Source: Enterococcus sp. DIV0660C
Lineage (GTDB): Bacteria; Bacillota; Bacilli; Lactobacillales; Enterococcaceae
DNA length: 60,974 bases
Assembly (NCBI RefSeq): GCF_017316125.1
Contig: NZ_JAFLWA010000021.1
Coordinates: forward strand, 1 to 60,974
Direction of reading: 5' to 3'
Shown: positions 1,777 to 29,837 of the stretch, piece by piece
Numbering within the stretch: position 1 is the first letter of the stretch
How the letters are laid out: every line of letters begins with the position of its first letter
Notes under the pieces: model-generated
Seen by the model: only the letters and a program-made list of their open reading frames with translations
Told to the model about the DNA's origin: nothing
Database searches by the model: none
Made by a program: the position numbers and the translations under genes

Positions 1777-3492
1777 TTATTCCTCCTCCTGTGATGCCAC
1801 GATTTCTTGGTACTCTTTTGATGTGCGTAATAGTTCATCATTTGTTCCCTGAGCAACAATCTGTCCTTGATCCATGACTAAAATAGTTTCTGCTTCTTGA
1901 ATCGAACGAACTCGTTGAGAAATAATCAATACGGTACAATCAAGAGAAGTCTTCAATGCTTTGCGTAAATTCAAATCCGTTTGATAGTCAAGTGCGCTTA
2001 ATGAATCATCAAGAATCAGTAAGGATGGTTTCGCAATCAAGGCGCGTGCGATAGTCAGTCTTTGTTTTTGCCCACCAGAAAAGTTTTTTCCATTTTCCAT
2101 CACTCTGGTATCCAGACCATCAGGAAGTTGACGAACAAACTCATCAGCTTGTGCAATTGCTAAAGCTTCCCAGCATTCCTCATCTGTGGCGTTTGCTTTG
2201 CCCCAATGTAAGTTGTCGCGGATAGAGCCAGTGAAGAGCACAGCTGTTTGAGGAACCATAGCAATTTGCTCTCGTAATTTTTCCGTTTCCCACTGTCGGA
2301 CATCTAATTCGTCAACGAGCACTTCGCCACTACTGACATCATAAAAGCGAGGAATTAGTTGAGTCAGAGTGGTTTTACCACTACCAGTGGGTCCAATGAC
2401 TCCAACGACAGTATTTTTCTTCACTTGAAAATTGATATTTTCTAAAGACAAACCAGAAGCTGGTGTATAGCGGAAATCTACATGTTTGAATTCAACGATT
2501 ATCTTACTATCAAGTTCAGGCGTACTTGCATCTGATGCTTCTTGAATCGAATTTTCCATGGCTAAGACTTCTTTGACGCGTTTTCCTGAAGCTTCAGCTC
2601 GGGTAAAAATCACGACTAAGTTAGAAACAACGATCAAAGCTAACAACATTTGGTTCATATAGTTGATCAACGCTAAAACTTGTCCTTGTTGTAGTCCACC
2701 AATATTGACTTTGATGCCGCCAACTGTCAATAGACAAATAATTCCTATATTCATAATCAAAGTGGTGGCAGGGGTCAAAAGTGCGGAAATATTGGAAACC
2801 AGTAAATAATTCTTGGCTAGATCATCGGTACTCTCGTCAAAACTTTTGACTTCCGTTTTTGTTCGACCAAAGGCCCGAATCACGCGAACACCACTCAGAT
2901 TTTGACTAACGATTTCGTTTAAATAATCTAATTTTTCTTGAACTTTTTGGTAAAGAGGAATTGTCTTTTTAATAATAAAATACAAGATAACCGCAAAAAT
3001 AGGTAAAAAAAGTAAGAAGAATAAACCAATTTGCCAATCAATGATAAAGGCCATCACGACAGAACCGATGCTTAAAAATGGTGCACGGATCAATAATCGG
3101 ATAACCATTGCCAACGCTAATTGCAATTGATTGATATCGTTGGTCATTCGAGTAATCAAGGTGTCTGTTCCAAAATGATTTAGCTCACTGTGAGAAAGTG
3201 TATTGATTTTTTTCATGAGTTGATTACGCAATTCTGTACCAAAACCTTGCGAAGCGATCGAAGAATAGTATTGACAAATGATGGCACAAATCAGTCCGAT
3301 AATTGACATGACAACCATCCAAACGCCCATTTGAATGACCACACCTGTATCATTTTTTTTAAGTCCGTTATCAATCAACGAAGCCATCAATAAGGGAAGA
3401 ACTAATTCAAAAACTGCTTCAAGAAATTTGAAAAAGGGTCCTAAAATGATTTGCTTACGATAGTCTTTTGCATAACGCAATAATTGAATCAT
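1777..3492 (-). CDS. ABC exporter subunit with degenerate ATP site (EfrA/BmrC/LmrC-like)
   Basis: First gene of the two-gene exporter operon, 571 aa, with a six-helix membrane domain and a C-terminal nucleotide-binding domain. Walker A is GPTGSGKTT and the signature is canonical (FSGGQKQR). After Walker B the catalytic Glu is Asp (ILDDSLSALD), and the switch-loop His is Gln (ISQRVRS). These are the hallmark substitutions of the degenerate half of a heterodimeric exporter. The start has AGGAGG six bases upstream. The downstream partner begins two bases after this stop, so the two are probably translated together and work as an obligate heterodimer in the cell membrane. EfrA-like naming is a family inference, not a proven orthology. 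Confidence 0.9.
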   Translation of the reverse strand: MIQLLRYAKDYRKQIILGPFFKFLEAVFELVLPLLMASLIDNGLKKNDTGVVIQMGVWMVVMSIIGLICAIICQYYSSIASQGFGTELRNQLMKKINTLSHSELNHFGTDTLITRMTNDINQLQLALAMVIRLLIRAPFLSIGSVVMAFIIDWQIGLFFLLFLPIFAVILYFIIKKTIPLYQKVQEKLDYLNEIVSQNLSGVRVIRAFGRTKTEVKSFDESTDDLAKNYLLVSNISALLTPATTLIMNIGIICLLTVGGIKVNIGGLQQGQVLALINYMNQMLLALIVVSNLVVIFTRAEASGKRVKEVLAMENSIQEASDASTPELDSKIIVEFKHVDFRYTPASGLSLENINFQVKKNTVVGVIGPTGSGKTTLTQLIPRFYDVSSGEVLVDELDVRQWETEKLREQIAMVPQTAVLFTGSIRDNLHWGKANATDEECWEALAIAQADEFVRQLPDGLDTRVMENGKNFSGGQKQRLTIARALIAKPSLLILDDSLSALDYQTDLNLRKALKTSLDCTVLIISQRVRSIQEAETILVMDQGQIVAQGTNDELLRTSKEYQEIVASQEEE

Positions 3493-3617
3493 ATGATTCC
3501 TCCTGAGTAGTAAAATTTTTTCTATATTTATAGTAGAAGAAAAGTGATAAGTACATTACACATTGTAGCTTATGAAATTTGGAATGAAAAGTCAGCAAGC
3601 TCTTTCATTAGAGTTTC

Positions 3618-3646
3618 TTTTCATTTTTTCAGCTTATTGATACAAT
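3618..3646 (+). promoter_or_regulatory. sigma-A type promoter for CmpB-like gene
   Basis: TTTTCA and TACAAT are separated by 17 nt, placed just upstream of the RBS of the CmpB-like gene and divergent from the ABC exporter operon. Hexamer matches are 4/6 and 5/6; no expression evidence. Confidence 0.5.
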
Positions 3647-3668
3647 GAAAAGAAAAAAGGAGGTACTT

Positions 3669-4505
3669 ATGAACGAGTTTATTCGTGTAGTATTGCTATT
3701 TTTTATTTACTCATTTGTCGGTTGGTTATGGGAAACCATTTATTGTTCCATTAAGGCCAAGCATTTCGTCTATCGAGGATTTTTGGTTGGGCCAATTACG
3801 CCAATCTATGGATTTGGAATTTTGGGCGTCTTGTATTTTATCGAGCCCTTCCAATCGAACCTTATTTTATTGTATGTTTTATCAACAGTTCTGGTCACGA
3901 TTTTGGAGTACTTGACGAGCTTTGGCTTGGAAAAATTGTTTCATGCTACTTGGTGGGATTATCATGATGTTCCGTTGAATATCAATGGGAGAGTTGCTGT
4001 ACCGGTCTCACTTTTTTGGGGCGTTGGCTGTGTCTTGATCGTGAAAGTAATCCATCCACATATTTTAGTTTTAGAACAATTGTTGGCGGAACACTTTGGT
4101 TTTTATTTACCAGTTATCTTGATTGGGGTAACCATGATGGATCTTGGTTACACATTGGCAAACTTGCAAAGTTTCCAAAAAGCAGTCACAGATTTGCAAA
4201 AAGCAATCAATGAACAAAAAGCAAACTTGCAAGAAGCCTTTGAAAAAACCAAAGACGAATGGGAAGAACGTCAAAAAACTTCAGGTACAGTTTTCGGTAA
4301 GGGCATTATCTCAAAACCAGAGAAAAAAGCTGCTACTGATTGGTTACAGGCATTTAAAGAGTCAGCAAAAACGAATGATTATTTGCCACGCTTGAACTAT
4401 ACGCAACGTCGCTTCTTGAAGAATTTCCCACAACTATCGTTGAAAGAAGGCAAAGATGTGAATGAAATTCGTCAATTAGTAAAAGAATTGCGTAAGAAAA
4501 AATAA
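3669..4505 (+). CDS. CmpB-like putative ABC-type membrane protein (PF06541 family)
   Basis: A 278-aa integral membrane protein. The N-terminal half has about five hydrophobic segments with the conserved stretches FVGWLWETIY, YRGFLVGPI and TPIYGFG, typical of the CmpB/YmcC-like family annotated as a putative ABC transporter. The C-terminal third (from about residue 170) is charged, largely helical and basic, and probably cytoplasmic. An earlier in-frame ATG exists 24 nt upstream, but AAAAAAGGAGGT sits correctly spaced for the ATG chosen here (MNEFIRVV). It stands alone between its own promoter and a strong terminator. Function in the family is not established. Confidence 0.8.
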   Translation: MNEFIRVVLLFFIYSFVGWLWETIYCSIKAKHFVYRGFLVGPITPIYGFGILGVLYFIEPFQSNLILLYVLSTVLVTILEYLTSFGLEKLFHATWWDYHDVPLNINGRVAVPVSLFWGVGCVLIVKVIHPHILVLEQLLAEHFGFYLPVILIGVTMMDLGYTLANLQSFQKAVTDLQKAINEQKANLQEAFEKTKDEWEERQKTSGTVFGKGIISKPEKKAATDWLQAFKESAKTNDYLPRLNYTQRRFLKNFPQLSLKEGKDVNEIRQLVKELRKKK

Positions 4506-4520
4506 CTTATATCATTGCTC

Positions 4521-4559
4521 AAAAAAGCAGTTGAACGAAAAAGTTCAATTGCTTTTTTA
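4521..4559 (+). terminator. rho-independent terminator
   Basis: AAAAGCAGTTGAAC pairs with GTTCAATTGCTTTT around a short A-rich loop, followed by a T-run, directly after the CmpB-like gene. Confidence 0.85.
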
Positions 4560-4594
4560 TTTTGTCCAATAGTTCATTGGTCACGAATTGTATT

Positions 4595-4648
4595 TGTAAT
4601 AAATTGTAATATTTTTGACATATAAATTGTAATAATCATTTGTATAAT
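4595..4648 (+). promoter_or_regulatory. candidate WalR-type repeats and -10 for the 3D-domain gene
   Basis: Three TGTAAT hexamers lie at 4595, 4605 and 4628, ahead of a TATAAT at 4643. WalR (YycF) of low-GC Gram-positives recognises two TGTWAH half-sites five bases apart. The first two copies here are only four bases apart, so the match is imperfect. The downstream gene encodes a wall protein with a 3D domain, the class (YocH) controlled by WalR in Bacillus, which makes the reading attractive. A TTGACA at 4615 lies 22 nt from the -10, too far for a standard promoter. Confidence 0.35.
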
Positions 4649-4674
4649 GTAAGAGTTGGTATTTTAGGAGAAAG

Positions 4675-5829
4675 GTGTTGGAGTTCGTGAAGGCAAAAAA
4701 AGCCTTAGTTATGCTTGCTGTCTTATTGTCAGCAAATTTAGCACTACCCTTAGTGGCTCAAGCAGAATCGCTTGATTCTTTAAATGAAAAAGAACAAGTT
4801 GCAAAACGTCGGGGTGAAGAAATCAGTGTTGAAGTACAAATGACATTAAATGATGTCAATGAAAAGTATCAAGAAGTTGAGAAAATAAAACAAGAAATTG
4901 ATCAAAATAAGCAAACGATTGATAAATCAAAACAAGAAATCAAGGAAACAGAAGCAACGATTGATAAGCGCAAAGAAGCGGTTGCGCAACGACTAAAAGA
5001 TGTGCAAATCAATGGTTCGAACGAGCGAAATCTACAAGCACTTTTAGAAGCTGATACAGTTGCTGAATTTATCAACCGTGCATATGCCGTTCGTGTTCTT
5101 CACCAAGCAGAAAAAGATAAAATCGCTAGTTTGGATAGTCAAAGACAAAAATTAGTTGATCTTAATCAAAAGTTGGAGGACACACAGACCTCACTAAAAA
5201 AGAATCGAGCTTCTTTAGAAGTTGAAGCGAAGGCTTTGAATGAAAAAGTTGATTCTTTAAAACAAAAGCTAGCAGACAATCAAGTGATACTTAGCGAAAT
5301 TGCTAAAAACAAAGAGGCCGAAACAACGCGAATCGCTACCGAAAAAGCAAAACAAGAAGCGGCTGAACAGGAAGCAAAAAAACGAGCAAAAGAACAAGAA
5401 GTGAAAAGGCAAGCTGAAGTAAAAGAGCAAGAAGCTGCTCAAAAAGCAGAAGCAGAAAAATTGGCGACTGAAAAAGCAAAACAAGAGACTGAACTAGCTA
5501 AGGAAGAATCAAAAGAAAAGCCAAAAGAGGAAGTACCAACATCAGGTGCTACCCGTATGATGGAATCTACAGCATATTCTTATTCAGAACCGGGTTCAGG
5601 ACATATCACTGCCAGTGGGTTAGATTTATATGATAATCCGCAAGCAATTGCCGTTGACCCTAGTGTGATTCCACTAAATTCAATCGTGAATGTTGAAGGT
5701 TATGGTGTGGCGATCGCTGCTGACACAGGAGGCGCAATCAAAGGAAACATTATTGATGTTCACTTTACAACGGTTGCAGAATGTGTTGCTTGGGGACGTC
5801 GACAAGTAAAAGTAACTGTAATGAGTTAA
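4675..5829 (+). CDS. secreted coiled-coil protein with C-terminal 3D domain
   Basis: A 384-aa secreted protein. Residues 1-30 form a signal peptide ending in AQA. Residues about 31-290 are a long charged coiled coil rich in Lys, Glu, Gln and Ala, like the N-terminal regions of CwlO/PcsB/SagA wall proteins. The last 75 residues are a 3D domain (MltA/YocH-like double-psi barrel) with the three Asp residues in AVDPSVIP, AADTGG and IDVHF. The 3D domain is found in lytic transglycosylase-like or resuscitation factors, so a peptidoglycan-remodelling role is inferred. The start is ambiguous among GTG 4675, TTG 4678 and GTG 4687; AGGAG at 4666-4670 favours one of the first two. No NlpC/P60 domain is present. 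Confidence 0.85.
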   Translation: MLEFVKAKKALVMLAVLLSANLALPLVAQAESLDSLNEKEQVAKRRGEEISVEVQMTLNDVNEKYQEVEKIKQEIDQNKQTIDKSKQEIKETEATIDKRKEAVAQRLKDVQINGSNERNLQALLEADTVAEFINRAYAVRVLHQAEKDKIASLDSQRQKLVDLNQKLEDTQTSLKKNRASLEVEAKALNEKVDSLKQKLADNQVILSEIAKNKEAETTRIATEKAKQEAAEQEAKKRAKEQEVKRQAEVKEQEAAQKAEAEKLATEKAKQETELAKEESKEKPKEEVPTSGATRMMESTAYSYSEPGSGHITASGLDLYDNPQAIAVDPSVIPLNSIVNVEGYGVAIAADTGGAIKGNIIDVHFTTVAECVAWGRRQVKVTVMS

Positions 5830-5830
5830 T

Positions 5831-5879
5831 AAAAAGGGCTAAGGCAAAACGTACAAGCGTTTGCCTTAGCCCTTTTTTA
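5831..5879. terminator. bidirectional terminator
   Basis: A long near-perfect inverted repeat (AAAAAGGGCTAAGGCAAA paired with TTTGCCTTAGCCCTTTTTT) lies between two convergent genes and can end transcription from both the 3D-domain gene and the LPMO gene. Confidence 0.9.
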
Positions 5880-6524
5880 TTATTGTGCTAAATTAGTCAA
5901 GCGATCTCCTTGTTTGACATTTACATCTATGACGTTATAAAACGCATTTGGTGTGTCATCAATATCCCAAACAGCTAAAACAACATGATAGCCTAGATGG
6001 TCAGCAGGGATCGTTACTTTGTGAGTTGCATCTGTTGAAGCAACTTCTCCCCCATGATCGATTGTATCAATCAATTGTAATTCATCTCGAGTTAATGGTT
6101 TGTTTTGATCCCAACCATTTTTTGTAATATAGTAATGCCATTTTGTTGTTGCATGATCAGCAGTAAATGTCCAAGAAAAATTATTTTTTCCAGTGAATAC
6201 AGTATGTTTTGTCCAACGATCAGCGGTTTGTTTGTCTAAAGTATAATCTCCTAATACGCCATCAGCTGAAGCAATGTGACCGTCTGCAGGTCCAGCTTGC
6301 GGAAAGCCTTTTTTTGCTTCCAATGATTGAGGATCATCAATAACTGCACCATATTTATCATGAGCGCCGCTCCAACCTAGATTGCTTTTGTCTAAAAAGC
6401 CTTGATAACCACGACTTGCTGGTTCCTTAACATAGCCATGTGCATCAACAGAAACAGTCGTTAATGCAGTAAATCCAGTTGTAACTAAAATGAAACTTAA
6501 TCCTAACAATGTACTCTTTTTCAT
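5880..6524 (-). CDS. AA10 lytic polysaccharide monooxygenase (chitin-active, CBM33)
   Basis: A 214-aa secreted copper enzyme of the CBP21/EfaCBM33A family that oxidatively cleaves crystalline chitin. The signal peptide ends in VDA, so the mature protein begins HGYVKEPASRG with the N-terminal His29 of the copper histidine brace. The second brace His is His124 in ADHATTKW, and the conserved NAFY near the C-terminus supplies the axial Phe. KGFPQAGPADGHIASADG and VLAVWDIDDTPNAFY are family signatures. Single domain, no extra CBM. GGAGGG precedes the chosen ATG; an upstream TTG overlaps that RBS and is rejected. It shares a promoter box with the nearby chitinase, so the two are probably co-induced. 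Confidence 0.95.
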   Translation of the reverse strand: MKKSTLLGLSFILVTTGFTALTTVSVDAHGYVKEPASRGYQGFLDKSNLGWSGAHDKYGAVIDDPQSLEAKKGFPQAGPADGHIASADGVLGDYTLDKQTADRWTKHTVFTGKNNFSWTFTADHATTKWHYYITKNGWDQNKPLTRDELQLIDTIDHGGEVASTDATHKVTIPADHLGYHVVLAVWDIDDTPNAFYNVIDVNVKQGDRLTNLAQ

Positions 6525-6588
6525 CTTGAAACCCTCCAAAATAAATATTCTATTTGAGAGATAAAACTCAAATCTCTCAACAACAAGT

Positions 6589-6641
6589 AGTATAAAATGG
6601 AACAGTTTTAAAAAATTATTTTGTATGTTATTGCAACAAAA
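6589..6641 (-). promoter_or_regulatory. LPMO promoter with shared 23-bp chitin box
   Basis: On the minus strand, the 23-bp box at 6641-6619 (TTTTGTTGCAATA + ACATACAAAA) is followed after exactly 24 nt by the -10 TATACT (6594-6589). The same box, differing at two positions, precedes the chitinase -10 by exactly 24 nt. The box ends are an inverted repeat (TTTTGT/ACAAAA). Its position just upstream of a poor -35 suggests an activator site. Confidence 0.7.
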
Positions 6642-6652
6642 AAATTATGTGA

Positions 6653-7495
6653 TCAACTATAAGTGCTCTTTAATCGAAGGATGAAGTCCGTCATTGTCGT
6701 TAGACCTAACCAATTGAAAAAATGAATTCCTTGATCGATTTCGGGAATCACGCTTTGATCCCCTTGAGATAAACGATCCAAGGCAGAAAAGATTTTATAA
6801 TAAGCCATATTTAAGCTATTCGTATGTAATTCTGCTAGTTTTTTAAGTTCAGCAAGAAAAAGTGTTCTTAAAGTGTTTGATGAGCGAGTGAAAGATAGTC
6901 TAACGCCATTTAAAATAAAATTGGCTAATAAGTTTTGTTGAACAGCAGTATCTTGGTAAATTCCCATTTTAGTAACACTATGATAGAAGGAACGTACGAT
7001 ATAGTCCGTTTTAAAAACAAAAAGACATCTTGAAAATACTGAAAGCTCAAAATGCCCCCAAGTATCGATATGTTCTAAATAATTCATAATTAGTTGAGCT
7101 TCTTTTTTGACCTCAGGAGTAATTGCTTCGTTGTCTAAATGATTAAGAATGATTTTCCGTTGGGCGTAAAGCAAACGATAAAAAATATTTCCAGTTTTTT
7201 CATATTCTTTTAGTAATTCGTCTTCTTGTGCAGAAGTGAGTGCAGGAGTTGTAAGAAAATAATTGGTTAATTTTTGTTTTGGTGACAGAGAACCATCGTT
7301 TAGTAAAAATTCGTATTCCTCTAAAGTCACATTCATTTTTTCTAGATAACTAATCAAAAGCTCAAAACTGATTTTTGTACCACGAGATTCGAAAGCAGCG
7401 AGTGTTCCTCGTTGGGAAATTCCCATGGTCAACTGTTCCTGAGTAAAACCACGTTCTTTCCTTAACTTCCGAATCAAAAAAGCATGTTTTGGCAT
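6653..7495 (-). CDS. Rgg/GadR/MutR-family transcriptional regulator
   Basis: A 280-aa stand-alone regulator. Residues 1-65 form an XRE-type helix-turn-helix (IRKLRKERGFTQEQL...SRGTLAAFESRG). The rest is a helical repeat domain of the kind that binds short peptide pheromones in Rgg proteins. The length is usual for Rgg (about 280-300 aa). AAAGGGAG lies 8 nt before the ATG; an in-frame GTG nine bases upstream abuts the RBS and is unlikely. The gene lies between the LPMO gene (same strand) and the divergent chitinase gene, so it is the obvious candidate to bind the shared box in both promoters. That link is inference. No small pheromone gene was found next to it. Confidence 0.85.
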   Translation of the reverse strand: MPKHAFLIRKLRKERGFTQEQLTMGISQRGTLAAFESRGTKISFELLISYLEKMNVTLEEYEFLLNDGSLSPKQKLTNYFLTTPALTSAQEDELLKEYEKTGNIFYRLLYAQRKIILNHLDNEAITPEVKKEAQLIMNYLEHIDTWGHFELSVFSRCLFVFKTDYIVRSFYHSVTKMGIYQDTAVQQNLLANFILNGVRLSFTRSSNTLRTLFLAELKKLAELHTNSLNMAYYKIFSALDRLSQGDQSVIPEIDQGIHFFNWLGLTTMTDFILRLKSTYS

Positions 7496-7621
7496 ACCAA
7501 ACACTCCCTTTGTTATTTTATTTCTAGTTTAAGATAACACACTCCGATTCGAATAAAGAAATTCTTCTTTTATGTTGCTTTTTTATTAAAAAGTGTAAAA
7601 TTCCTTTTGTTTTAAGGAATA

Positions 7622-7674
7622 TTTTGTTGCAATAGCGTACAAAAAAGTCTTTTTTATAAGAGGTAATTTATAAT
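7622..7674 (+). promoter_or_regulatory. chitinase promoter with shared 23-bp chitin box
   Basis: The 23-bp box at 7622-7644 (TTTTGTTGCAATA + GCGTACAAAA) is followed after exactly 24 nt by a consensus TATAAT at 7669-7674. The -35 region (AGTCTT) is poor, so the promoter probably needs an activator. It matches the LPMO promoter box at 21 of 23 positions with identical spacing. Confidence 0.75.
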
Positions 7675-7716
7675 TGAGGAGGATTTTAAAATAAAATAAA
7701 TGTTGGAGGGAAAAGA

Positions 7717-9453
7717 ATGCAAAAAAAATTATTGTTATTTTCAATTGGTATCATTGGAGGAATATTTGGTTGTGCAAATGGTGTCGCTGCGGATACAGCA
7801 GATGAAATGCCAAGTATTGCAAACAAGCAAATCTCGGTTGGTTATTATCATAATTGGCCTGGAGAAATGGGGGCAGGTTATATGGGCGGAGCTCCCGCTG
7901 ATGTCCAATTAGACCAGATCAATCCCTTTTACAATGTCATTTCTGTTGCCTTTATGAAAGGGGAAGGAATACCTACTTTCAAACCGTATAATATGAGTGA
8001 TCAAGCATTCAGAAACCAAGTGGCAACTTTAAATGCGCAAAATCGTGCGGTTCTTTTATCACTAGGTGGCGCAGATTCACATATTGAACTTTCAACTGGA
8101 CAAGAACAGGCTTTTGCAAATGAAATTATTCGCTTGGTCGATACATATGGCTTTGATGGCTTGGATATTGATTTAGAACAAACGGCTGTAGCAGCAGGAG
8201 ATAATGCAAAAGTCATCCCAGCAGCGTTAAAAATTGTGCGTAACCATTATGAACAACAAAATAAACACTTTATTATTTCAATGGCGCCAGAATTTCCGTA
8301 TTTGAGAACAGCAGGGAAATATGTACCTTATATCACTGCTTTAGAAAACGACTATGATTTTATTGCGCCACAGCTTTATAATCAAGCTGGAGATGGTATT
8401 AGTGTTGGCTCAGAATGGATTGCTCAAAACAACGATAGTAAAAAGTTTGAATTCTTATATGGAATCTCAGATGCCTTTGATAAAGGGGATAATGGCTTTA
8501 TTCATATTCCAGCAAGTAAATTAGCTTTAGGACTTCCAGCCAACCAAGATGCAGCAGCAAATGGTTATGTCAAAGATCCGAATGTTGTCTATCAAGTGTT
8601 TGAAACGCTAGCGAAAAAAGGGACTCCTTTAAAAGGGATCATGACGTGGAGTGTGAACTGGGATGAAGGAAAAAATTCAGCGGGGATTGGTTACAATGAA
8701 TCATTTGCACGTGCTTATCAAGGATTATTTGAAGAACAGGTGCCTGATACAGAGAAACCAACTGTTCCAACAAATTTAACAGCATCTGCAACCTCAAACA
8801 GTGTTTCGTTGTCTTGGAAAGCTTCTACTGATAATGTCAAAGTAGATCATTACAATATTTATGAAAAAGATCAGTTAGTTGGCACAAGTAAAACAACAGA
8901 TTTTGTGCATACTGGTTTATCAGCAGCAACAAACTATAGCTATACAGTCGTAGCAGTAGACACGTCAAATAATCAATCTGCGCACTCAACTAAGCTAGAT
9001 GTGGTTACAAAAGAGGCATCCGAGTTAAGCAAGCCTTCTGCACCTACGAATGTAAAAATTAGCAAAGCTACAGCAAATAGTTTAACTTTAACATGGGACA
9101 ACAACGCTTCAGAAGAAGAAGTGACCACCTATGAGATTTATCGTGAGAATAAAAAAGTGGCAACGACAACTGACAACCAATTCACGGATCAAAATTTGAC
9201 ACCAGAAACAACATACATGTATCAAATCAAAGCAGTGAATCGAGTTGGTCTTTCTGATTTCAGTCAACAAGTAACAGGCACAACAACTTCTGATAGTAGC
9301 GAAGTCCAAGAGTGGAAAGTTGGGGTCACGTACCATGCGGGGGATGTGGTAATTCATCAAGGGCATCAATATAAATGCTTGCAGACACACACATCGATAG
9401 CTGTTTGGAGTCCGGATCAAGCACCTGCTTTATGGGAAAAGTTAAGCAAATAA
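7717..9453 (+). CDS. secreted modular GH18 chitinase (GH18-FnIII-FnIII-CBM5/12)
   Basis: A 578-aa secreted endo-acting chitinase candidate. Residues 1-25 form a signal peptide. Residues about 37-345 form the GH18 barrel with the motif DGLDIDLE at 147-154 (Glu154 is the acid/base), plus SLGG at 115-118 and MTWSVNWD near the barrel end. Two fibronectin type III modules follow (about 348-433 and 438-522). A C-terminal CBM5/12 (about 530-576) has the aromatic pattern WKVGVTYHAGDVV and LWEKL. GGAGGG precedes the ATG. With the LPMO it forms a chitin-degrading pair known in enterococci (EF0361/EF0362-like); here the two are separated by a regulator and transcribed apart. E. faecalis EfChi18A has a similar catalytic domain; orthology is not proven. 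Confidence 0.95.
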   Translation: MQKKLLLFSIGIIGGIFGCANGVAADTADEMPSIANKQISVGYYHNWPGEMGAGYMGGAPADVQLDQINPFYNVISVAFMKGEGIPTFKPYNMSDQAFRNQVATLNAQNRAVLLSLGGADSHIELSTGQEQAFANEIIRLVDTYGFDGLDIDLEQTAVAAGDNAKVIPAALKIVRNHYEQQNKHFIISMAPEFPYLRTAGKYVPYITALENDYDFIAPQLYNQAGDGISVGSEWIAQNNDSKKFEFLYGISDAFDKGDNGFIHIPASKLALGLPANQDAAANGYVKDPNVVYQVFETLAKKGTPLKGIMTWSVNWDEGKNSAGIGYNESFARAYQGLFEEQVPDTEKPTVPTNLTASATSNSVSLSWKASTDNVKVDHYNIYEKDQLVGTSKTTDFVHTGLSAATNYSYTVVAVDTSNNQSAHSTKLDVVTKEASELSKPSAPTNVKISKATANSLTLTWDNNASEEEVTTYEIYRENKKVATTTDNQFTDQNLTPETTYMYQIKAVNRVGLSDFSQQVTGTTTSDSSEVQEWKVGVTYHAGDVVIHQGHQYKCLQTHTSIAVWSPDQAPALWEKLSK

Positions 9454-9472
9454 GTTAAAAAAACAAATTATG

Positions 9473-9540
9473 CAAACATCTAACTAGTGCAAAAAAGGCA
9501 ACTGTTCTTTTAGTTCATAGTTAGATGTTTGTTTTGTTAT
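9473..9540 (+). terminator. terminator of the chitinase gene
   Basis: CAAACATCTAACTA (9473-9486) pairs perfectly with TAGTTAGATGTTTG (9518-9531), with a 31-nt loop and a T-rich tail. Apart from this, 9541-9760 holds no gene that I can see. Confidence 0.75.
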
Positions 9541-9760
9541 ATAACGTTCATCTTATTGGGGGAAAAGAGTTAAAAAGTATTTCTTGTTGTAGGTGGGTGA
9601 TTAAAAAACGGAATGTGATTTTATTATTTTCAGCTAAAAAATAACGATTATCAAAATATTTTTCTTTACGAATGAGTCTTTTATGTTAAAAAAACATTAC
9701 GTGATTGTTTCTCGGATATTACACATGACGAATCACCTTTTAATCATCTATATTGTTCTG

Positions 9761-9854
9761 TATAATTAAATCAAATATTGCCTTTTTAAAGACCGAAAAT
9801 TGATTTTTATCGATTGTTTTTTATGCGTTTCGTGGATAAAACAATCGATAAAAA
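9761..9854 (+). promoter_or_regulatory. WTA operon leader: -10 element and 17-bp hairpin
   Basis: A consensus TATAAT (9761-9766, weak -35) is followed by a perfect 17-bp inverted repeat, TTTTTATCGATTGTTTT (9804-9820) and AAAACAATCGATAAAAA (9838-9854), with a 17-nt loop. It ends about 50 nt before tagB. No T-run follows, so it is not a simple terminator. An operator or mRNA-stability hairpin in the leader of the teichoic acid operon is more likely. Confidence 0.5.
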
Positions 9855-9903
9855 ATAGTGATCAGGTGACAAAATTGTTAGGTTGGGAAGGAGTAGATCA
9901 GCA

Positions 9904-11028
9904 ATGGATATAGTGAAAAATGGATATATGACTGCTGCAATGCTTTGGCCTAAAAGAAAACTGACCGCGACGATTGTGTACATCATGAGTTTTTCGTTTA
10001 ATGAAGGCGACTTAATCAAACAGCTTCACTTGAACTATCCAGGAAAGGTGACTGTTTTTTTTGTAGATAAGTGCCGCGAGTATGCGGAAAAGTTAAAGAG
10101 TGAAGGGGTCGATGTTCGCCCATTTACGCCCAAAAGTCTGTTTTTAGGAAGAAACCTTTCTTTATTAAAACAAGCAAAAGTGATTATCGTTGATAACTAT
10201 TTTCCTGAATTAGCAGTGATGGCTTCCGACCAGATAGTCATTCAAGTATGGCATGCTGATGGTGCAATCAAAAAATTTGGTTGGGATGATCCGCAGACGA
10301 AGCAACGTAGTCGACAAGACCAAAAGAGGTTTCAAAAAGTTTATAACTCTTTCAACTATGTAGTAGTCAATTCAGATAAGATGGCAGGTATTTTTCAAAA
10401 AAGCTATGATCTAAATTTAAACGTGATTAAAAAGGTAGGTTCTCTAAGATTAGAAACAGTTCATAAAGTAGCAAAAACGGTGAAACAAACAAAAAAATTT
10501 ATTTTATATGCACCGACGTACCGTCCTGAACAAAAAGATATGGAGCACATTTTTACACAAGCATTAGCTACGTTTTCTAAACTATCGGGAGAACAATTTT
10601 ATGTACATCTACATCCAACGATCAATCAAGAAAATTGGACCTTACCTGAAAATGTACATTGGTGGAATCAAAACATCATGGAAAGTTACCCAAATGTAAA
10701 ATTATTGATTACGGATTACTCAGCAAGTACCTTTGAGTATCTTACTATACAGGAACAGCCAAAAATTATTTTTTTCTGTCCTGATTTTGATAAATATAAA
10801 AATAATCCAGGAATTCAAGATGATTTTCTTGAATGGGCACCTGGACCAGTCGTGAAGAGCCAGGAATTGTTGGGGCAAACAATTCAATCATATTCATATG
10901 AAGCAAATGAACAATTGGTAAAAAAAACAAAACTGTTATGGAATCAGTATGAAAATGGCGAAACTGTTGGAGAGATAATGGCGTTAGTGAAAAAGGAACT
11001 GGGTGAGATTGGTGGAAAAAACAAATAG
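9904..11028 (+). CDS. tagB: TagB/TarB-type CDP-glycerol glycerophosphotransferase (WTA primase)
   Basis: A 374-aa member of the CDP-glycerol glycerophosphotransferase family. TagB adds the first glycerol phosphate to the ManNAc-GlcNAc-PP-undecaprenol linkage unit at the inner membrane face. The diagnostic stretch is VWHADGAIKKFGWDDP, close to the TagB form (WHAxGAIKKFG) rather than the HGTP of TarF/TagF. Also present are YAPTYRP, the second catalytic His in HLHP and the ITDYSASTFEY loop. AAGGAG lies 10 nt before the ATG used here. It is first in a run of genes with small gaps or overlaps that ends at gpsA. The following tagA starts inside its 3' end. Primase is preferred over polymerase on motif and position. 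Confidence 0.85.
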   Translation: MDIVKNGYMTAAMLWPKRKLTATIVYIMSFSFNEGDLIKQLHLNYPGKVTVFFVDKCREYAEKLKSEGVDVRPFTPKSLFLGRNLSLLKQAKVIIVDNYFPELAVMASDQIVIQVWHADGAIKKFGWDDPQTKQRSRQDQKRFQKVYNSFNYVVVNSDKMAGIFQKSYDLNLNVIKKVGSLRLETVHKVAKTVKQTKKFILYAPTYRPEQKDMEHIFTQALATFSKLSGEQFYVHLHPTINQENWTLPENVHWWNQNIMESYPNVKLLITDYSASTFEYLTIQEQPKIIFFCPDFDKYKNNPGIQDDFLEWAPGPVVKSQELLGQTIQSYSYEANEQLVKKTKLLWNQYENGETVGEIMALVKKELGEIGGKNK

Positions 11029-11812
11029 GACTGAATACATAAGTGGAGTCCCTGTCGATGATTTAACCTATCAAACAATCGTGGAGGATATTCCAAAATA
11101 TTTAGCTGCAAATAAAAAAATGTTGATTACAAGTGTTAATCCTCAAATTACCTTGCAAGCTTACCAGTATCCAGAAGTGAAAGCTTATTTGGAGCGGGCG
11201 ACACATAGGATTGCTGACGGGATTGGTGTGGTCAAGGCTTCTAAAATGTTACGAGGGAATATTCGTGAACGGATAACTGGTATTGAAGTGATGGAAAGAA
11301 GCTTGCAGTTTGCGAATCAATTTGGTTACCGAATTTTTTTATATGGAGCCAAAAAGGATGTAGTGAACCAAGCAGCACGAAATATTCAAGAAAAATATCC
11401 GAATATTGAAGTGGCGGGCACACTTCATGGCTACACGAGCAGAAATACAGAAGAAGTAATTAAAAAAATTAATCAAGCAAACTGTACCTTTCTCTTTGTT
11501 GCCTTGGGATCACCTAAGCAAGAAATCTTTTTGGAAAGAAACGTAGATCAATTGAATGCCAAAGTTTTTCTAGACGTAGGAGGCACCTTTGATGTCCTTG
11601 CGGGAGTAGTCAAGCGGGCACCAAAATTTTATTTAGACAATAATCTTGAATGGCTTTATCGATCACTTTCGATGAAGCGTTATGATCGTTTGGTGCAGAT
11701 TCCGAAGTATTTATATTCGATTCTGCGGCATAGGGACGTCAAAGTGGTCAATAAGACACAACAATTAGATGTAGAAATCAAAAAAGAGTTAAAAGAGTGG
11801 AGACATGAGTGA
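11003..11812 (+). CDS. tagA: TagA/TarA N-acetylmannosaminyltransferase (WTA linkage unit)
   Basis: WecG/TagA/CpsF-family glycosyltransferase (GT26), about 269 aa, that adds ManNAc from UDP-ManNAc to GlcNAc-PP-undecaprenol. Family signatures are visible: TSVNPQITLQA near residue 45, RIADGIGVV (the conserved Asp) near residue 70, RITGIEVM, LGSPKQE and DVGGTFDVLAG. The start is uncertain (GTG 11003, TTG 11009 or GTG 11012), all inside the tagB 3' end. Its stop overlaps the next gene's GTG by four bases, so coupled translation is likely. No UDP-GlcNAc epimerase (mnaA) or tagO is in the window; these must be elsewhere. Confidence 0.92.
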   Translation: MRLVEKTNRTEYISGVPVDDLTYQTIVEDIPKYLAANKKMLITSVNPQITLQAYQYPEVKAYLERATHRIADGIGVVKASKMLRGNIRERITGIEVMERSLQFANQFGYRIFLYGAKKDVVNQAARNIQEKYPNIEVAGTLHGYTSRNTEEVIKKINQANCTFLFVALGSPKQEIFLERNVDQLNAKVFLDVGGTFDVLAGVVKRAPKFYLDNNLEWLYRSLSMKRYDRLVQIPKYLYSILRHRDVKVVNKTQQLDVEIKKELKEWRHE

Positions 11813-12987
11813 GTACATTGCGAAGAAATCTTGAAATAATTTATCATCGATGGGTGAAAAAAGTTTTTTCTTTACTTAACAAACATCCGAAAGAGAAACT
11901 AATCTTTTTTGAAAGTTTTCACGGCAAACAATATAGTGATAACCCACGTGCTATTTATGAATATATTCGGGAAAATTATCCGGAGTACACATGTGTTTGG
12001 GCGGTAAAGAAAGGCTTTGAAACTCCTTTCATTGAAAATGACGTTCCTTATGTAAGGCGAATGGGCTTGAAGTGGCTGCTGACAATGCCAAGATCAAAAT
12101 ATTGGTTTTTCAATACTAGGATGCCTGGGTGGATGGTTAAAGGTAAAAATATTTACGTTCAAACATGGCATGGAACGCCACTAAAAAGATTAGGATTAGA
12201 CATCAAGAATGTGACGATGCCAGGAACGGATACACATAAGTATCGGGAAAATTTTAAAAATGAGGCTGCTCGTTGGGATTATTTGATTTCACCGAATGCC
12301 TATAGTACGGAAATCTTTCGAAGTGCATTTGCATATGAAGGAGAGATACTAGAAATCGGTTATCCAAGAAATGATATTCTTCTGTTGCCTGATAAAGATG
12401 GAAGAATAAAGCAAATCAGGAAAAAACTAGCTATTGCTGACAATCAAAAAGTTATCCTCTATGCGCCCACTTGGCGAGATAACCAATTTATAAAAAAAGG
12501 TGCTTACAAATTTGATAATCAATTTCCTTTCGCTGAAATTTTAGAGCAAGAATCAGATACGGTCATTTTGACTAGACTGCATTACTTAGTGGCAGAACAC
12601 TTTGATCCTAAACAATATGGCAATCGTGTGATAGATGTTTCTAGTTATGAAGATATCAGTCATTTGTATTTGATTGCAGATTTGCTAATTACTGATTATT
12701 CTTCTGTCATGTTTGACTTTGCTTTAACGAAAAAGCCAATAATCTTTTATATGTATGATTTAGACTCTTACGGAAAAGAAATCAGAGGCTTTTATGAGGG
12801 AGTACTGGATAAGTTGCCGGGGCCAATCATTCAGAAAAAAGATGAACTTATTTCTGAAATCCATGCAGTAAAGGCAACGTCTTTTAAATCCAGTAGTAAG
12901 TATTATGCATTTTATCAACGTTTTTGTATTGATGATATTGATGCGACTGAAAAATTATTAACGAAAATTTTAGGAGGAACAAAATGA
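11809..12987 (+). CDS. TarF/TagF-like CDP-glycerol glycerophosphotransferase (short form)
   Basis: A 392-aa glycerophosphotransferase. Motifs include TWHGTPLKRLGLDI (catalytic His in HGTP), YAPTWRDNQF, TRLHY and ITDYSSVMFDF, as in TarF and the catalytic half of TagF. It lacks the long N-terminal extension of the three later enzymes. A GTG start with GGAG six bases upstream overlaps the tagA stop (GTGA), and its own stop overlaps the tagD start (ATGA). It probably adds the next glycerol-phosphate unit or units after TagB. Whether it primes or polymerises cannot be told from sequence. Confidence 0.85.
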   Translation: MSTLRRNLEIIYHRWVKKVFSLLNKHPKEKLIFFESFHGKQYSDNPRAIYEYIRENYPEYTCVWAVKKGFETPFIENDVPYVRRMGLKWLLTMPRSKYWFFNTRMPGWMVKGKNIYVQTWHGTPLKRLGLDIKNVTMPGTDTHKYRENFKNEAARWDYLISPNAYSTEIFRSAFAYEGEILEIGYPRNDILLLPDKDGRIKQIRKKLAIADNQKVILYAPTWRDNQFIKKGAYKFDNQFPFAEILEQESDTVILTRLHYLVAEHFDPKQYGNRVIDVSSYEDISHLYLIADLLITDYSSVMFDFALTKKPIIFYMYDLDSYGKEIRGFYEGVLDKLPGPIIQKKDELISEIHAVKATSFKSSSKYYAFYQRFCIDDIDATEKLLTKILGGTK

Positions 12988-13382
12988 AACGAGTAATTAC
13001 TTATGGAACATTTGATTTATTACATTATGGTCACATCAATTTATTAAAGAGAGCGAAAGAACAAGGTGATTATCTAGTTGTAGCCCTATCAACAGATGAA
13101 TTTAACTGGAACCAAAAGCAAAAAAAATGCTATTTTTCTTATGAAAAAAGAAAACAATTGCTAGAAGCTGTGCGTTATGTTGATTTGGTCATTCCAGAAA
13201 ATGACTGGAGTCAAAAAGCGTCTGACATTAAAGAATATCATATTGATACTTTTGTGATGGGAGACGATTGGGCAGGTAAGTTTGATTTTCTGGAAACAGA
13301 AACAACTGCTGAAGTTTTCTACTTACCAAGAACACCTGAAATCTCAACAACACAAATCAAGAAAGACTTGAATAAAGTGTAA
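12984..13382 (+). CDS. tagD: glycerol-3-phosphate cytidylyltransferase TagD/TarD
   Basis: A 132-aa nucleotidyltransferase that makes CDP-glycerol from CTP and sn-glycerol-3-phosphate, the donor for every glycerophosphotransferase in this operon. The HxGH motif is at YGTFDLLHYGHINLL, and the C-terminal signature is RTPEISTTQIK (RTEGISTT in Bacillus TagD). Length matches TagD (about 129 aa). It overlaps the upstream gene by four bases. The gap of 36 nt after it marks the change from the conserved linkage-unit block to the variable polymerase block. Confidence 0.95.
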   Translation: MKRVITYGTFDLLHYGHINLLKRAKEQGDYLVVALSTDEFNWNQKQKKCYFSYEKRKQLLEAVRYVDLVIPENDWSQKASDIKEYHIDTFVMGDDWAGKFDFLETETTAEVFYLPRTPEISTTQIKKDLNKV

Positions 13383-13418
13383 TTTAAGTGATGCTGCAAA
13401 GTTGAAAGAGGTGTTTTT

Positions 13419-15776
13419 TTGAAGTACGAATGTTCATTCATATCATTGAATAATAACAACTTGCGAGGTAGTTTGAAAGACGCCTCGCTTCTTGGCGTTT
13501 TCTCGGAGAATTACTCATTACAAGTCAATCAAGAAAATTTTCAGATCGTCAATGTAACGGAAATGCTACTAGCTGATGAACTTATTTTTCAAATTGAAGT
13601 CGATCGAGAATTACCGTCTGACATTCAAACCAACTCAATAGTTAAACTAGTTGATTTAAATACGACAATAATAGAATTAAGGACGCATAATTGGTCCATT
13701 GAACAGAGGATTAGTCAAGAAAACAAGATACCTATATTTGATTGTTTGATTGAAAATCAGCAATTAAAATTTTCCTTTTTTGATCTGTCTCAAACAGACT
13801 TTACAATAAACGTTCGCTCAAAGTCTGGAAAATTATACGAAAAAATTCGTTACTTTAGAAGTCAAACAGCTGGAATAACAACCATTTCAATAAATAATCT
13901 TGACTTAATTGACCAGATAAATGAATTAGGTAGGTACCATTTTTACCTTGAAACTGAAGGGAAGAGTTATGAATTTTTACTAGCTAAGATTCATACAAAA
14001 AAAAATAAATATCTTGATTTTATATATAAGGATGCTACTCGTGAAGTAATGATCTATGCCTCTCAAAAAACATCGTTATCATTTACAATACAGCCACCAG
14101 TTAAAATGAATGAATTTCGTTACCATAAAAAAGCGAAGTTGTTAGCCTTGAGGAAAAAAACATCGTTGGTTATAGAAATTAAGATTCCAATAGAGTATAG
14201 AGAAGGCTTTACCTATTTGTTGAAAATCCAACACAGAGGAACGCTAACAGCTGCATATCAATTAGAACCAATAAAAAGAATCGGAAAGAAACTTGTTTTT
14301 TCTATTGATTTAACTGCCTATGACTGGGCGTATTATTACTGGGATTTATATTTAGAATGCCAAGGTGAGCAAGAAACATATGCTTGTAGAATAATCAATA
14401 AGTCATTCTTTCTGTACTTAAAATTACAGTACTTTTCGGGACGTTATCAGTCAAAAATAGATGAGAACATCGTGTATCCATATCAAACAATGAAGTACGC
14501 CATCAGTCTTAATTATCGTCCTTTTAGCGAGTATGAGACGAAAAAATACAAACGAAATGAATGGATTGCTTATGTCCTAGCTCATACGATAGGTCTCTTT
14601 TTTTTAGGGAACGATATTTGGTTGATTCATGAAAAATACTCAAATACAGCACAAGATAATTCATATTATTTTTTCAATTATTTACAAGAAAAAACTAATC
14701 AACGTGCATATTTTGTAATAAAAAAAGAATCACCAGAGTACAACAAGTTAGATCACTATCAACGACGTCGAGTTGATTTTATGAGTGTGAAACATCTCTT
14801 TTTGCTACTTATAGCCAGAAGAGTGGTTGCTTCGGAATCTAAGGGTCATGGTTACGCCTGGCGGGTACAAACAGGACCAATCAAGCCCATTCTAGATAAA
14901 AAAAGATATGTCTTTCTTCAACATGGTGTTTTAGGTCTTAAGAAACTTGACAATACATTTAATGCAACACGTTCAAATAATCAAGCAGAACTTTTTATCA
15001 CATCAGCAGAGTGGGAGAAAAAAATAGTTCAGAAATACTTGGAATATACTCCTCAAAATATTGTAGTGACAGGGCTAGCTAGATGGGATGAGTTACAAAA
15101 AAATAAAGGTAAATTGATAAAGAAAAAACAATTTTTGATTATGCCAACTTGGCGAACTTGGTTAGAAGATTTAACTCAAGAAGAATTTATCAAATCAGAT
15201 TTTTTTCAACAATATTCTCAACTGCTTTCCAATCAGGAGCTCCTAAAGTTCTTGGAGATGGAAAGCTACACTATCATTTTTTATATTCATCCCAAATTAG
15301 CGGAATATATTCAATTGTTTGATGTTTCTGCACATAGAAATCTACGTATTATTCCAATGGGCGACGTTCCATTAAACGAACTTCTTTCTGAGAGCGAATG
15401 TTTAATAACAGATTATTCTAGCATTTATTGGGAAGCCTTGTACCAAGGAATACCAACAATATTTTTCCAATTTGACATAGAAAAATATCAACAACTGCAA
15501 GGAAGTTATCTCGATCTTAATAAAGAGTTACAAGAAACTCGCTGTTTTGATGTACAATCTTTGATTTTAGAGATGAAGCAAAGAGGTTATCTTTCAAACG
15601 ATGTAAACTTACATGCAAAAACAATCTTTCCCTATATAGATAATCAAAATTCAGCCAGAATTTTTGAAGAAATCAAACGATATGAACCTAATTTAATAAA
15701 TAGACTAAAACAAAGAATTAAAAGGAATCGACTAGTTGAAATGGTTAGAATACGTATCAACGATATAGTCAGATAG
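13419..15776 (+). CDS. large TagF-like glycerophosphotransferase 1
   Basis: A 785-aa protein. The C-terminal ~400 residues are a CDP-glycerol glycerophosphotransferase domain with FLQHGVLGLKK, MPTWRTWLEDL, FYIHPKLAEY and ITDYSSIYWEALYQG. The N-terminal ~350 residues are beta-rich with no familiar motif. The junction carries YYWDLYLE followed by VYPYQTMKY, a segment repeated in the two following paralogues. A TTG start has AGAGGTG six bases before it. It probably elongates or branches the teichoic acid using CDP-glycerol. Paralogy with the next two genes is clear from motif identity; the particular acceptor is unknown. The DNA is AT-rich relative to tagD. Confidence 0.82.
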   Translation: MKYECSFISLNNNNLRGSLKDASLLGVFSENYSLQVNQENFQIVNVTEMLLADELIFQIEVDRELPSDIQTNSIVKLVDLNTTIIELRTHNWSIEQRISQENKIPIFDCLIENQQLKFSFFDLSQTDFTINVRSKSGKLYEKIRYFRSQTAGITTISINNLDLIDQINELGRYHFYLETEGKSYEFLLAKIHTKKNKYLDFIYKDATREVMIYASQKTSLSFTIQPPVKMNEFRYHKKAKLLALRKKTSLVIEIKIPIEYREGFTYLLKIQHRGTLTAAYQLEPIKRIGKKLVFSIDLTAYDWAYYYWDLYLECQGEQETYACRIINKSFFLYLKLQYFSGRYQSKIDENIVYPYQTMKYAISLNYRPFSEYETKKYKRNEWIAYVLAHTIGLFFLGNDIWLIHEKYSNTAQDNSYYFFNYLQEKTNQRAYFVIKKESPEYNKLDHYQRRRVDFMSVKHLFLLLIARRVVASESKGHGYAWRVQTGPIKPILDKKRYVFLQHGVLGLKKLDNTFNATRSNNQAELFITSAEWEKKIVQKYLEYTPQNIVVTGLARWDELQKNKGKLIKKKQFLIMPTWRTWLEDLTQEEFIKSDFFQQYSQLLSNQELLKFLEMESYTIIFYIHPKLAEYIQLFDVSAHRNLRIIPMGDVPLNELLSESECLITDYSSIYWEALYQGIPTIFFQFDIEKYQQLQGSYLDLNKELQETRCFDVQSLILEMKQRGYLSNDVNLHAKTIFPYIDNQNSARIFEEIKRYEPNLINRLKQRIKRNRLVEMVRIRINDIVR

Positions 15777-15819
15777 AAGGAATTTTTAACATTCCTATAT
15801 TGCTTATGAGGTGAACAAA

Positions 15820-28763: not shown

Positions 28764-28826
28764 GGTAAAATGTTAATATTTTGGATTAAGTAATTTTCAG
28801 ATTCACAATTGAAAGGAAGAAATTTA

Positions 28827-29837
28827 ATGAAAAAAATCGCAGTTTTAGGTCCAGGTTCTTGGGGGACTGCCTTAGCACAAACCTTAGCAGAAAATGGGCA
28901 TGATGTTCGAATTTGGGGAAATGTTCCTGAACAAATTGATGAGATCAATGAATATCATACCAATAAACATTTTTTGCCAGATTTGCAAATTCCTGAATCA
29001 ATTGTAGGATATAAAGAATTAGCGGAAGCTGTTGATGGTGTTGATGCTGTATTATTCGTTGTCCCAACAAAAGCTATTCGTTCAGTTGCGCAAGAATTGC
29101 TAGAAAAAATGAATACAAAACCAATCATCATTCATGCAAGTAAGGGATTAGAACAAGGCACACACAAACGCATTTCAGAAGTGATTGCAGAAGAACTTCC
29201 AGAAGAAAAACGCCAAGCAATCGTTGTTCTTTCTGGTCCAAGTCATGCAGAAGAAGTTGCCGTTCACGACATCACGACGATTACGGCTGCAAGTATTGAT
29301 CAAAATGCAGCAGAATTTGTTCAAGATTTATTTATGAATGATTATTTCCGAATCTATACAAATAACGATGTAATTGGCGTGGAAACAGGTGCTGCATTAA
29401 AAAATATTATTGCAATCGGCGCTGGCGCTATTCATGGACTAGGATTTGGTGATGACGCAAAAGCGGCTATCATGACTCGAGGTTTAGCTGAAATCAGTCG
29501 TCTAGGGGTGGCTATGGGTGCTAACCCACTGACATTTATTGGATTAAGCGGTGTGGGCGATTTGATTGTTACGTGTACGAGTGTTCATTCTCGTAATTGG
29601 CGTGCAGGAAACTTATTGGGTCAAGGACATAAATTGGCTGAGGTTCTAGAAAATATGGGGATGGTTGTTGAAGGTGTTTCAACGACAAAAGCCGCTGTTG
29701 AACTAGCTAAGCAATTAAATGTGGAGATGCCAATCACTGAGACCATCTATAGTGTGTTATATGAAGATAAAGATATCAAGCAAGCTGCAAAAGATATCAT
29801 GTTGCGTGATGGCAAGACGGAAAATGAATTTATGTAA
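28827..29837 (+). CDS. gpsA: NAD(P)H-dependent glycerol-3-phosphate dehydrogenase
   Basis: A 336-aa enzyme making sn-glycerol-3-phosphate from dihydroxyacetone phosphate, for phospholipids and for TagD. The Rossmann motif is [12 protein letters not shown] (residues 5-16). Other signatures are [34 protein letters not shown] (catalytic Lys), [11 protein letters not shown] and [19 protein letters not shown] precedes the ATG; an in-frame TTG 18 nt upstream overlaps the RBS. It closes the WTA operon, which makes sense as precursor supply. A strong terminator follows. Confidence 0.96.

Follow-up and report, generated by a model that had tools for sequence, protein, structure and literature searches.

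To our knowledge, the control of chitinase and LPMO genes in enterococci is poorly understood. The Rgg/SHP and ComRS systems form the peptide-sensing class of regulators. In the related RopB/LCP system, activation is described at promoters with a defective -35 (PMC10518010), and the survey of the RopB clan in the same paper, the main text of which does not contain the word chitin, searched 450 bp on either side of each receptor gene. In Listeria, the Rgg-like protein Lmo0325 is required for chitinolytic activity (PMC5666140).

Here we consider a stretch of 60,974 nucleotides of Enterococcus sp. DIV0660C, analysed over its whole length (the window; Table 1), in which a chitinase gene and an LPMO gene lie on opposite strands (LPMO and rgg minus, chitinase plus) with an Rgg-like regulator gene between them, as an earlier reading made without database searches (the sequence-only reading) had described. 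The two enzymes have AA10 and GH18 Pfam matches above cut-off. The regulator is of the Rgg/GadR/MutR type, with an N-terminal HTH and the Rgg C-terminal helical domain (PF21259, 67.4 bits for a cut-off of 27; HTH_3, 28 bits for 23; TIGR01716, 53.5 bits for 36.9). Its AlphaFold2 model, built on an alignment of 14 sequences, is all-helical (pLDDT 81, pTM 0.65), and a profile search recovered the RopB structures 6dql/5dl2 over the C-terminal domain (E 4e-10 to 6e-10), 4ryk, the structure of Lmo0325, being the second-best PDB match. Beyond the chitinase, positions 9883-19587 hold by eye several large glycerophosphotransferase-like, teichoic-acid-type genes. The LPMO leader (6536-6588, minus strand) starts with a short stem-loop, as do those of many relatives despite differing sequences; 11 of 17 LPMO leaders fold at -4 kcal/mol or lower, a count made without a shuffle control, and this structure is possibly a 5' stabiliser.

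Table 1. Features of the window (positions in the 60,974-nucleotide stretch) and tiny ORFs of related genomes
Feature	Position or genome	Strand	Remark
AA10 LPMO gene	5880..6539	-	PF03067 (LPMO_10), E=2.4e-42
Probable LPMO start codon	near 6524	-	internal ATG, by eye
-10 TATACT, LPMO promoter	6589..6594	-	24 nt after box
23-bp box of LPMO promoter, TTTTGTTGCAATAACATACAAAA	6619..6641	-	putative Rgg operator
Rgg/MutR-type regulator gene (rgg)	6653..7504	-	Rgg_C + HTH_3; recognition helix RGTLAAFE
Probable rgg start codon	near 7495	-	ATG, by eye
23-bp box of chitinase promoter, TTTTGTTGCAATAGCGTACAAAA	7622..7644	+	putative Rgg operator
-10 TATAAT, chitinase promoter	7669..7674	+	24 nt after box
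GH18 chitinase gene	7717..9453	+	GH18 + fn3 (2 stretches) + CBM5/12
Intergenic stretch 3' of chitinase	9454..9882	.	boxed tiny ORF of relatives not found in the window
gpsA	28824..29831	+	away from the cluster in the window, no tiny ORF before it
Tiny ORF MWSVTPPM	G007, G008, G011
Tiny ORF MWSVTPPF	G005
Tiny ORFs MWDITPPM, MWDVSPPM, MWNVTPPK	G003
Tiny ORF MGEEWSISPPM	G009
Tiny ORF MGEEWSVSPPV	G013
Tiny ORF MDWSVTLPVVL	G002
Tiny ORF MLPLPLSGGTWDVTPPSPMK	G010
Tiny ORF MFPLPLPLGGWEVSPNNP	G006

The two enzyme genes are preceded by boxes that are identical at 21 of 23 positions and each point at their own gene. The other details given in the sequence-only reading are borne out as well: exactly 24 nt separate each box from its -10 hexamer (TATACT and TATAAT), and the box ends TTTTGT/ACAAAA form an inverted repeat, with arms 11 nt apart. 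Both promoters had been said to lack a -35, and a sigma-70-type consensus scan of positions 5800-9900 gave 8 pairs against a shuffle mean of 14.1, with none at either boxed promoter. At up to three mismatches the window contains two box matches for 0.02 expected, a number reached by 0 of 100 shuffles, and the whole 2.60 Mb genome contains two, both at the cluster promoters, for none with the reversed pattern; a wider box regulon in this genome is therefore not supported.

We compared 15 genomes of the genus, that of the window included. Fourteen of them retain the chitinase-rgg-LPMO cluster, and the Rgg was matched in the same 14 (58-96% identity to that of the window in the 13 others); the chitinase is found there at 72-97% identity and a close LPMO beside it at 58-95%, the LPMO copy of G003 having one stop within its frame. 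The fifteenth genome, G004, has no Rgg, no chitinase and no box at up to two mismatches and therefore provides no independent test. This threshold gives 24 box sites, spread over 13 of the 15 genomes and lying in clusters in 21 cases (reversed control, 7 places). Its exact core, TGTTGYAATANNNNACAAA, occurs at 27 places in 14 of the 15 genomes against a single place for the reversed control; nine of the 27 lie outside the clusters and are of mixed quality, several having no -10 at 24 nt. A looser box pattern gave 236 places, little above the 182 of its control, and in 90 genomes from outside the genus the box was at chance level (20 places, in 14 of the genomes; reversed control, 29 places).

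From the 14 cluster genomes we assembled 31 promoters (14 of chitinase, 17 of LPMO genes). They show 0-6 mismatches to the 20 fixed bases of the box (median 2), against typically 7-8 in 620 dinucleotide shuffles, although the values of 5-6 mismatches seen in six promoters are also reached by 76 of the shuffles. In 25 of the 31 promoters the top-scoring -10 hexamer is found 24 nt from the box (18 of 596 in shuffles); the distance is 23 or 25 nt in four and 19 nt in two. In two chitinase promoters, those of G010 and G006, a hexamer elsewhere scores as well or better. The sequence-only reading had staked its proposal on the box being present in orthologous promoters, and the core was found there in 30 of the 31 promoters, across 14 genomes, under a relaxed rule, the exception being the degenerate site of the G003 LPMO gene (5 mismatches). 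In a column profile that left out the G010 chitinase promoter, TGTTG, an A and ACA are the best-kept box columns and no -35 is conserved; by column information the box core and the -10 are constant and the flanks and most of the spacer variable. E. villorum (L063) has three consecutive LPMO copies, all of them boxed; the box of the middle copy is weaker (5 mismatches).

Scanning the fetched loci for the box together with its spacing exposed boxed promoters before very short ORFs preceded by a Shine-Dalgarno sequence. There are 12 such ORFs, of 8-20 codons, in 10 of the 14 cluster genomes (Table 1), with the pattern W-x-[VI]-[ST], mostly W-x-[VI]-[ST]-P-P; PP is missing from MDWSVTLPVVL and WEVSPNNP. 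Ten of the 12 are leaderless and of 8-11 residues, the other two having 18 and 20 codons. All have a Shine-Dalgarno sequence and a TGTTG box, which is weakest in G009 and in the first of the G003 copies. The -10 follows the box after 24 nt in 11 cases and after 23 nt in one, and three of the 12 show a second candidate -10 hexamer. The tiny ORFs are located behind the chitinase and not adjacent to rgg, and they adjoin gpsA in nine of the ten genomes that have one. A scan of 269 kb gave just two further frames matching W.[VI][ST][PL], the first an extended version of a tiny ORF already counted, the second with neither box nor Shine-Dalgarno sequence; over the 15 genomes, the peptide codon pattern gave 25 places (11 of them tiny ORFs) against 18 for its control. 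No terminator was found 3' of the tiny ORF on its strand in the three of the 12 that were scanned, and the 14 genomes have no conserved SHP-like small ORF next to rgg. Divergent tiny ORFs with a related W-[DE]-[VIL] core (MYSLDEFSWDVVPPRLF, MNPYTWEIEPPQKIEK, MFDFFEEKIWEVVPPQ, MYPNSPWEVEVF, MYLYAVGDNIWELVPSL) accompany several paralogous Rggs. The predicted product of the boxed tiny gene behind the chitinase resembles the leaderless peptides of RopB-type Rggs and is probably the signal of the regulator, a candidate co-inducer. In open-licence papers (main texts without supplements), six peptide strings had no match, and none of the papers listed concerned control of enterococcal chitinase or LPMO by this system.

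Some sites outside the clusters keep the spacing. Boxed promoters (loci L066:4631-6169 and L213:1441-2031) precede an L-type lectin gene in G010, with TATCAT at 24 nt, and a ricin-B-like gene in E. mundtii G008, with a weak CATACT at 24 nt; the twin of the latter in E. mundtii G011 has no -10 at that distance. The lectins of these two genomes are perhaps, by analogy, part of the peptide-switched set. Core sites near spx and murC in relatives were set aside, having no -10 at 24 nt; those some 350 nt upstream of a spx-like gene have the exact core in three species (L202, L207, L211), with no good -10 at this distance. Near birA, the exact core is also found in three species (L198, L214, L220), where a -10-like hexamer follows at 24 nt and a common TGTTGTTGT stretch lies downstream. 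One core variant recurs about 1.5-2.5 kb from a distant LPMO copy (G007:C1:789180, G008:C10:79161, G009:C3:22098), and one of these sites, L225, has no -10 at 24 nt. Other candidates were rejected: the remaining LPMO copies and the second GH18 gene of G014 (L083, L086-L097, L113), with at least 5 mismatches in their best box match; the sites G007:C1:1690850 and G008:C29 (2 mismatches), with no gene at the right spacing; and the one match in a plasmid collection, an E. mundtii record at 37.5% identity that is not this Rgg.

Two comparisons separate the regulator from the enzyme. Outside the genus, 18 of 105 family genomes have a GH18 homologue (17 in g13 and one in g2), none of them among the 28 genomes that match the Rgg at E<=1e-30; in the 16 of these 18 loci that we examined the box core is absent (0/16), and their best box matches are like those of the reversed control. 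Conversely, an Rgg paralogue at an unlinked locus of G001 (L018/L143, G001:C23), with a C-terminal domain about 25% identical to that of the window Rgg, has a divergent tiny ORF preceded by the TGTTG core, 24 nt and TATAAT, which is the geometry of the clusters, and no chitinase is found among the ORFs listed there. Comparison of these loci supports the view that the box accompanies the Rgg and not the chitinase, and with it the proposal of the sequence-only reading that the Rgg-like protein is the probable regulator. The L143 locus (2600-10451) also contains radical-SAM, ABC-transporter and integrase genes near the boxed paralogue and looks like a mobile, peptide-controlled RiPP cassette.

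The paralogue L018 and the window Rgg have in common the recognition helix RGTLAAFE, the position of which we take from homology. We compared 27 fetched paralogue loci, a subset of all matches from which the duplicate L026 was left out. Among 22 paralogues with an R[STN]TL[SAN][STN]FE helix, a pattern search matched a GACG-type box in 17 and a GTTG box in none; 14 of these 17 also keep the geometry, their top -10 beginning 43-44 nt from the G of GxxG. Of the five left unmatched, three (L017, L019, L116) fit by eye as well and two (L027, L115) do not. The remaining five paralogues have other helices; among them a GTTG match was obtained for one, L023 (REALNKFE), where the distance is not the same. 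In a tree built from the C-terminal domains, a single change (support 88/74) accounts for the GTTG set, so that GTTG/GACG would be one evolutionary switch; three GACG labels of this tree were assigned by eye, and the placement of L018, which has a long branch, is unsure. These sequences suggest a helix-to-operator rule for Rggs of this family, RGTLAAFE going with GTTG and R[ST]TLSSFE with GACG.

The best explanation, to which we give a probability of about 0.77, is that the box is the operator of the Rgg encoded between the two genes, in a peptide-controlled chitinolytic regulon. The Rgg would bind the 23-bp box just upstream of the missing -35, with the box centre about 36 nt before the -10, and would recruit RNA polymerase to the promoters of both enzyme genes, giving joint production of chitinase and LPMO. 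The operator would also drive the tiny, apparently leaderless peptide gene in most of the sister species that were examined; the peptide would be exported, re-imported and bound by the C-terminal domain of the Rgg, giving positive feedback as in RopB systems. By this analogy, accumulated peptide may enter the cell and induce the peptide gene itself together with those of the chitinase and the LPMOs. The promoters and their -10 hexamers, the binding of the Rgg to the box, activation, translation of the tiny ORFs and the role of the peptide as ligand are what we infer from sequence. The sequence-only reading spoke of two promoters, which is the number in the window; most relatives have three or more boxed ones.

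That the Rgg would activate, as the sequence-only reading put forward, and not repress is suggested by the missing -35. The Rgg might instead bind the box as a repressor or a dual switch relieved by peptide or another ligand, and SIP-free RopB is indeed reported to repress speB (PMC10071013); we think this unlikely, as neither promoter has a -35 and the box sits upstream of where a -35 would be, clear of the core promoter, which is the layout usual for an activator. The box could also belong to another regulator (carbon catabolite control, a GlcNAc/chitobiose sensor or a two-component system), with the Rgg a bystander or indirect. A catabolite-response (cre) consensus has a central CG, which neither box contains, and two sites in a whole genome are unlike a global regulator; the absence of the box from 16 of 16 examined chitinase loci without this Rgg and its presence at the unlinked Rgg locus also make this reading quite unlikely, even though chitinase control in Listeria involves several factors, namely sigma B, PrfA, agr and LhrA (PMC5666140).

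Descent without function deserves consideration too, since the genomes are related and one duplication could have given both promoters of the locus, the box matches then being the architecture of a duplicated promoter. This is hardly credible: box core and -10 persist while the flanks and most of the spacer vary, and the box recurs at lectin genes, at peptide genes and at the paralogous Rgg locus. As for the tiny ORFs, they might be untranslated or short leader transcripts sharing the promoter by chance, an idea to which the two ORFs of 18 and 20 codons and the two peptides with no PP lend some weight; we consider it quite unlikely, given that the amino-acid pattern is kept through some synonymous codon changes, that a Shine-Dalgarno sequence precedes 12 of 12 and that paralogous Rggs have tiny ORFs of the W-[DE]-[VIL] type.

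A signal, either a peptide or a chito-oligosaccharide, had also been suggested in the sequence-only reading; the peptide finds its counterpart in the boxed tiny ORFs of 10 of the 14 cluster genomes, with none found in the window genome itself. Codon-pattern and ORF scans gave no tiny W-peptide ORF in the three genomes of the clade of the window (G000, which is the window genome, G001 and G012), and none was found in G014, so that four of the 14 clusters are, as far as seen, without the proposed inducer. The single codon-pattern place in G000 is not a tiny ORF of this kind; also set aside was an ORF of nine codons on the minus strand in G000 and G012, which is not listed for G001. By eye, the gene after the cluster is of the teichoic-acid type, not gpsA, in G000, G001 and G012, and the gene after the chitinase is transposase-like in G014. 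The window genome has an Rgg paralogue (L020, G000:C2:90249) with a divergent tiny ORF, MNPYTWEIEPPQKIEK; the product of the next gene begins, by eye, with a signal peptide. In this clade the signal gene may have been lost, it may lie elsewhere in a diverged form, or the peptide of a paralogue may act as inducer. More tentatively, chitin digestion may be a quorum-sensed public good controlled through the Rgg and an unlinked leaderless W-x-V-T-P-P peptide, the clade of the window having retained receptor and operators while losing its signal gene, and either hearing the peptides of its neighbours or using the related MNPYTWEIEPPQKIEK of a paralogous system; we regard this scenario as possible but doubtful.

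Under the operator reading, bacteria with the boxed peptide gene may time the digestion of chitin collectively. The analysis yields a named candidate regulator, a putative operator of exact geometry and a short list of candidate peptides. It also indicates that the gene of a signal peptide need not lie beside that of the receptor and can then be traced through the shared operator, where surveys of the immediate neighbourhood would miss it.

Among the known arrangements, the enterococcal LPMO-chitinase loci of the g13 type (16 examined) have a GH18 56-58% identical to that of the window and, in the two loci with ORFs listed, an LPMO-like gene just upstream on the same strand; unlike the window, the chitinase is short (about 350 aa), with no Rgg match at E<=1e-30 and no box. 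These pairs presumably resemble the E. faecalis operon. With Rgg/SHP and ComRS, our locus has the receptor family in common by domain (PF21259, TIGR01716), but no conserved SHP- or ComS-like small ORF is found beside rgg. The Listeria Lmo0325-Lmo0327 locus also has an Rgg-like regulator, whose structure 4ryk is a sequence relative of ours, and by analogy Lmo0325 is a hint, from an independent side, that such regulators control chitinolysis; it adjoins lmo0326-lmo0327 and not chitinases, with no operator or peptide given in the text concerned (PMC5666140). Unlike RopB/LCP, there is no ultrasmall ORF in the immediate vicinity of the receptor gene, the chitinase, LPMO and peptide genes each have a separate boxed promoter, and the box is unlike GTTACGTNT, the half-site of RopB in PMC10518010. 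The range of that survey, 450 bp on either side of the receptor gene, means that a peptide behind the chitinase could not have been paired with this receptor. Like RopB/LCP, the locus has a putative operator upstream of a defective -35 in both peptide and target promoters, together with short leaderless ORFs, and the promoter of the peptide gene itself carries the operator.
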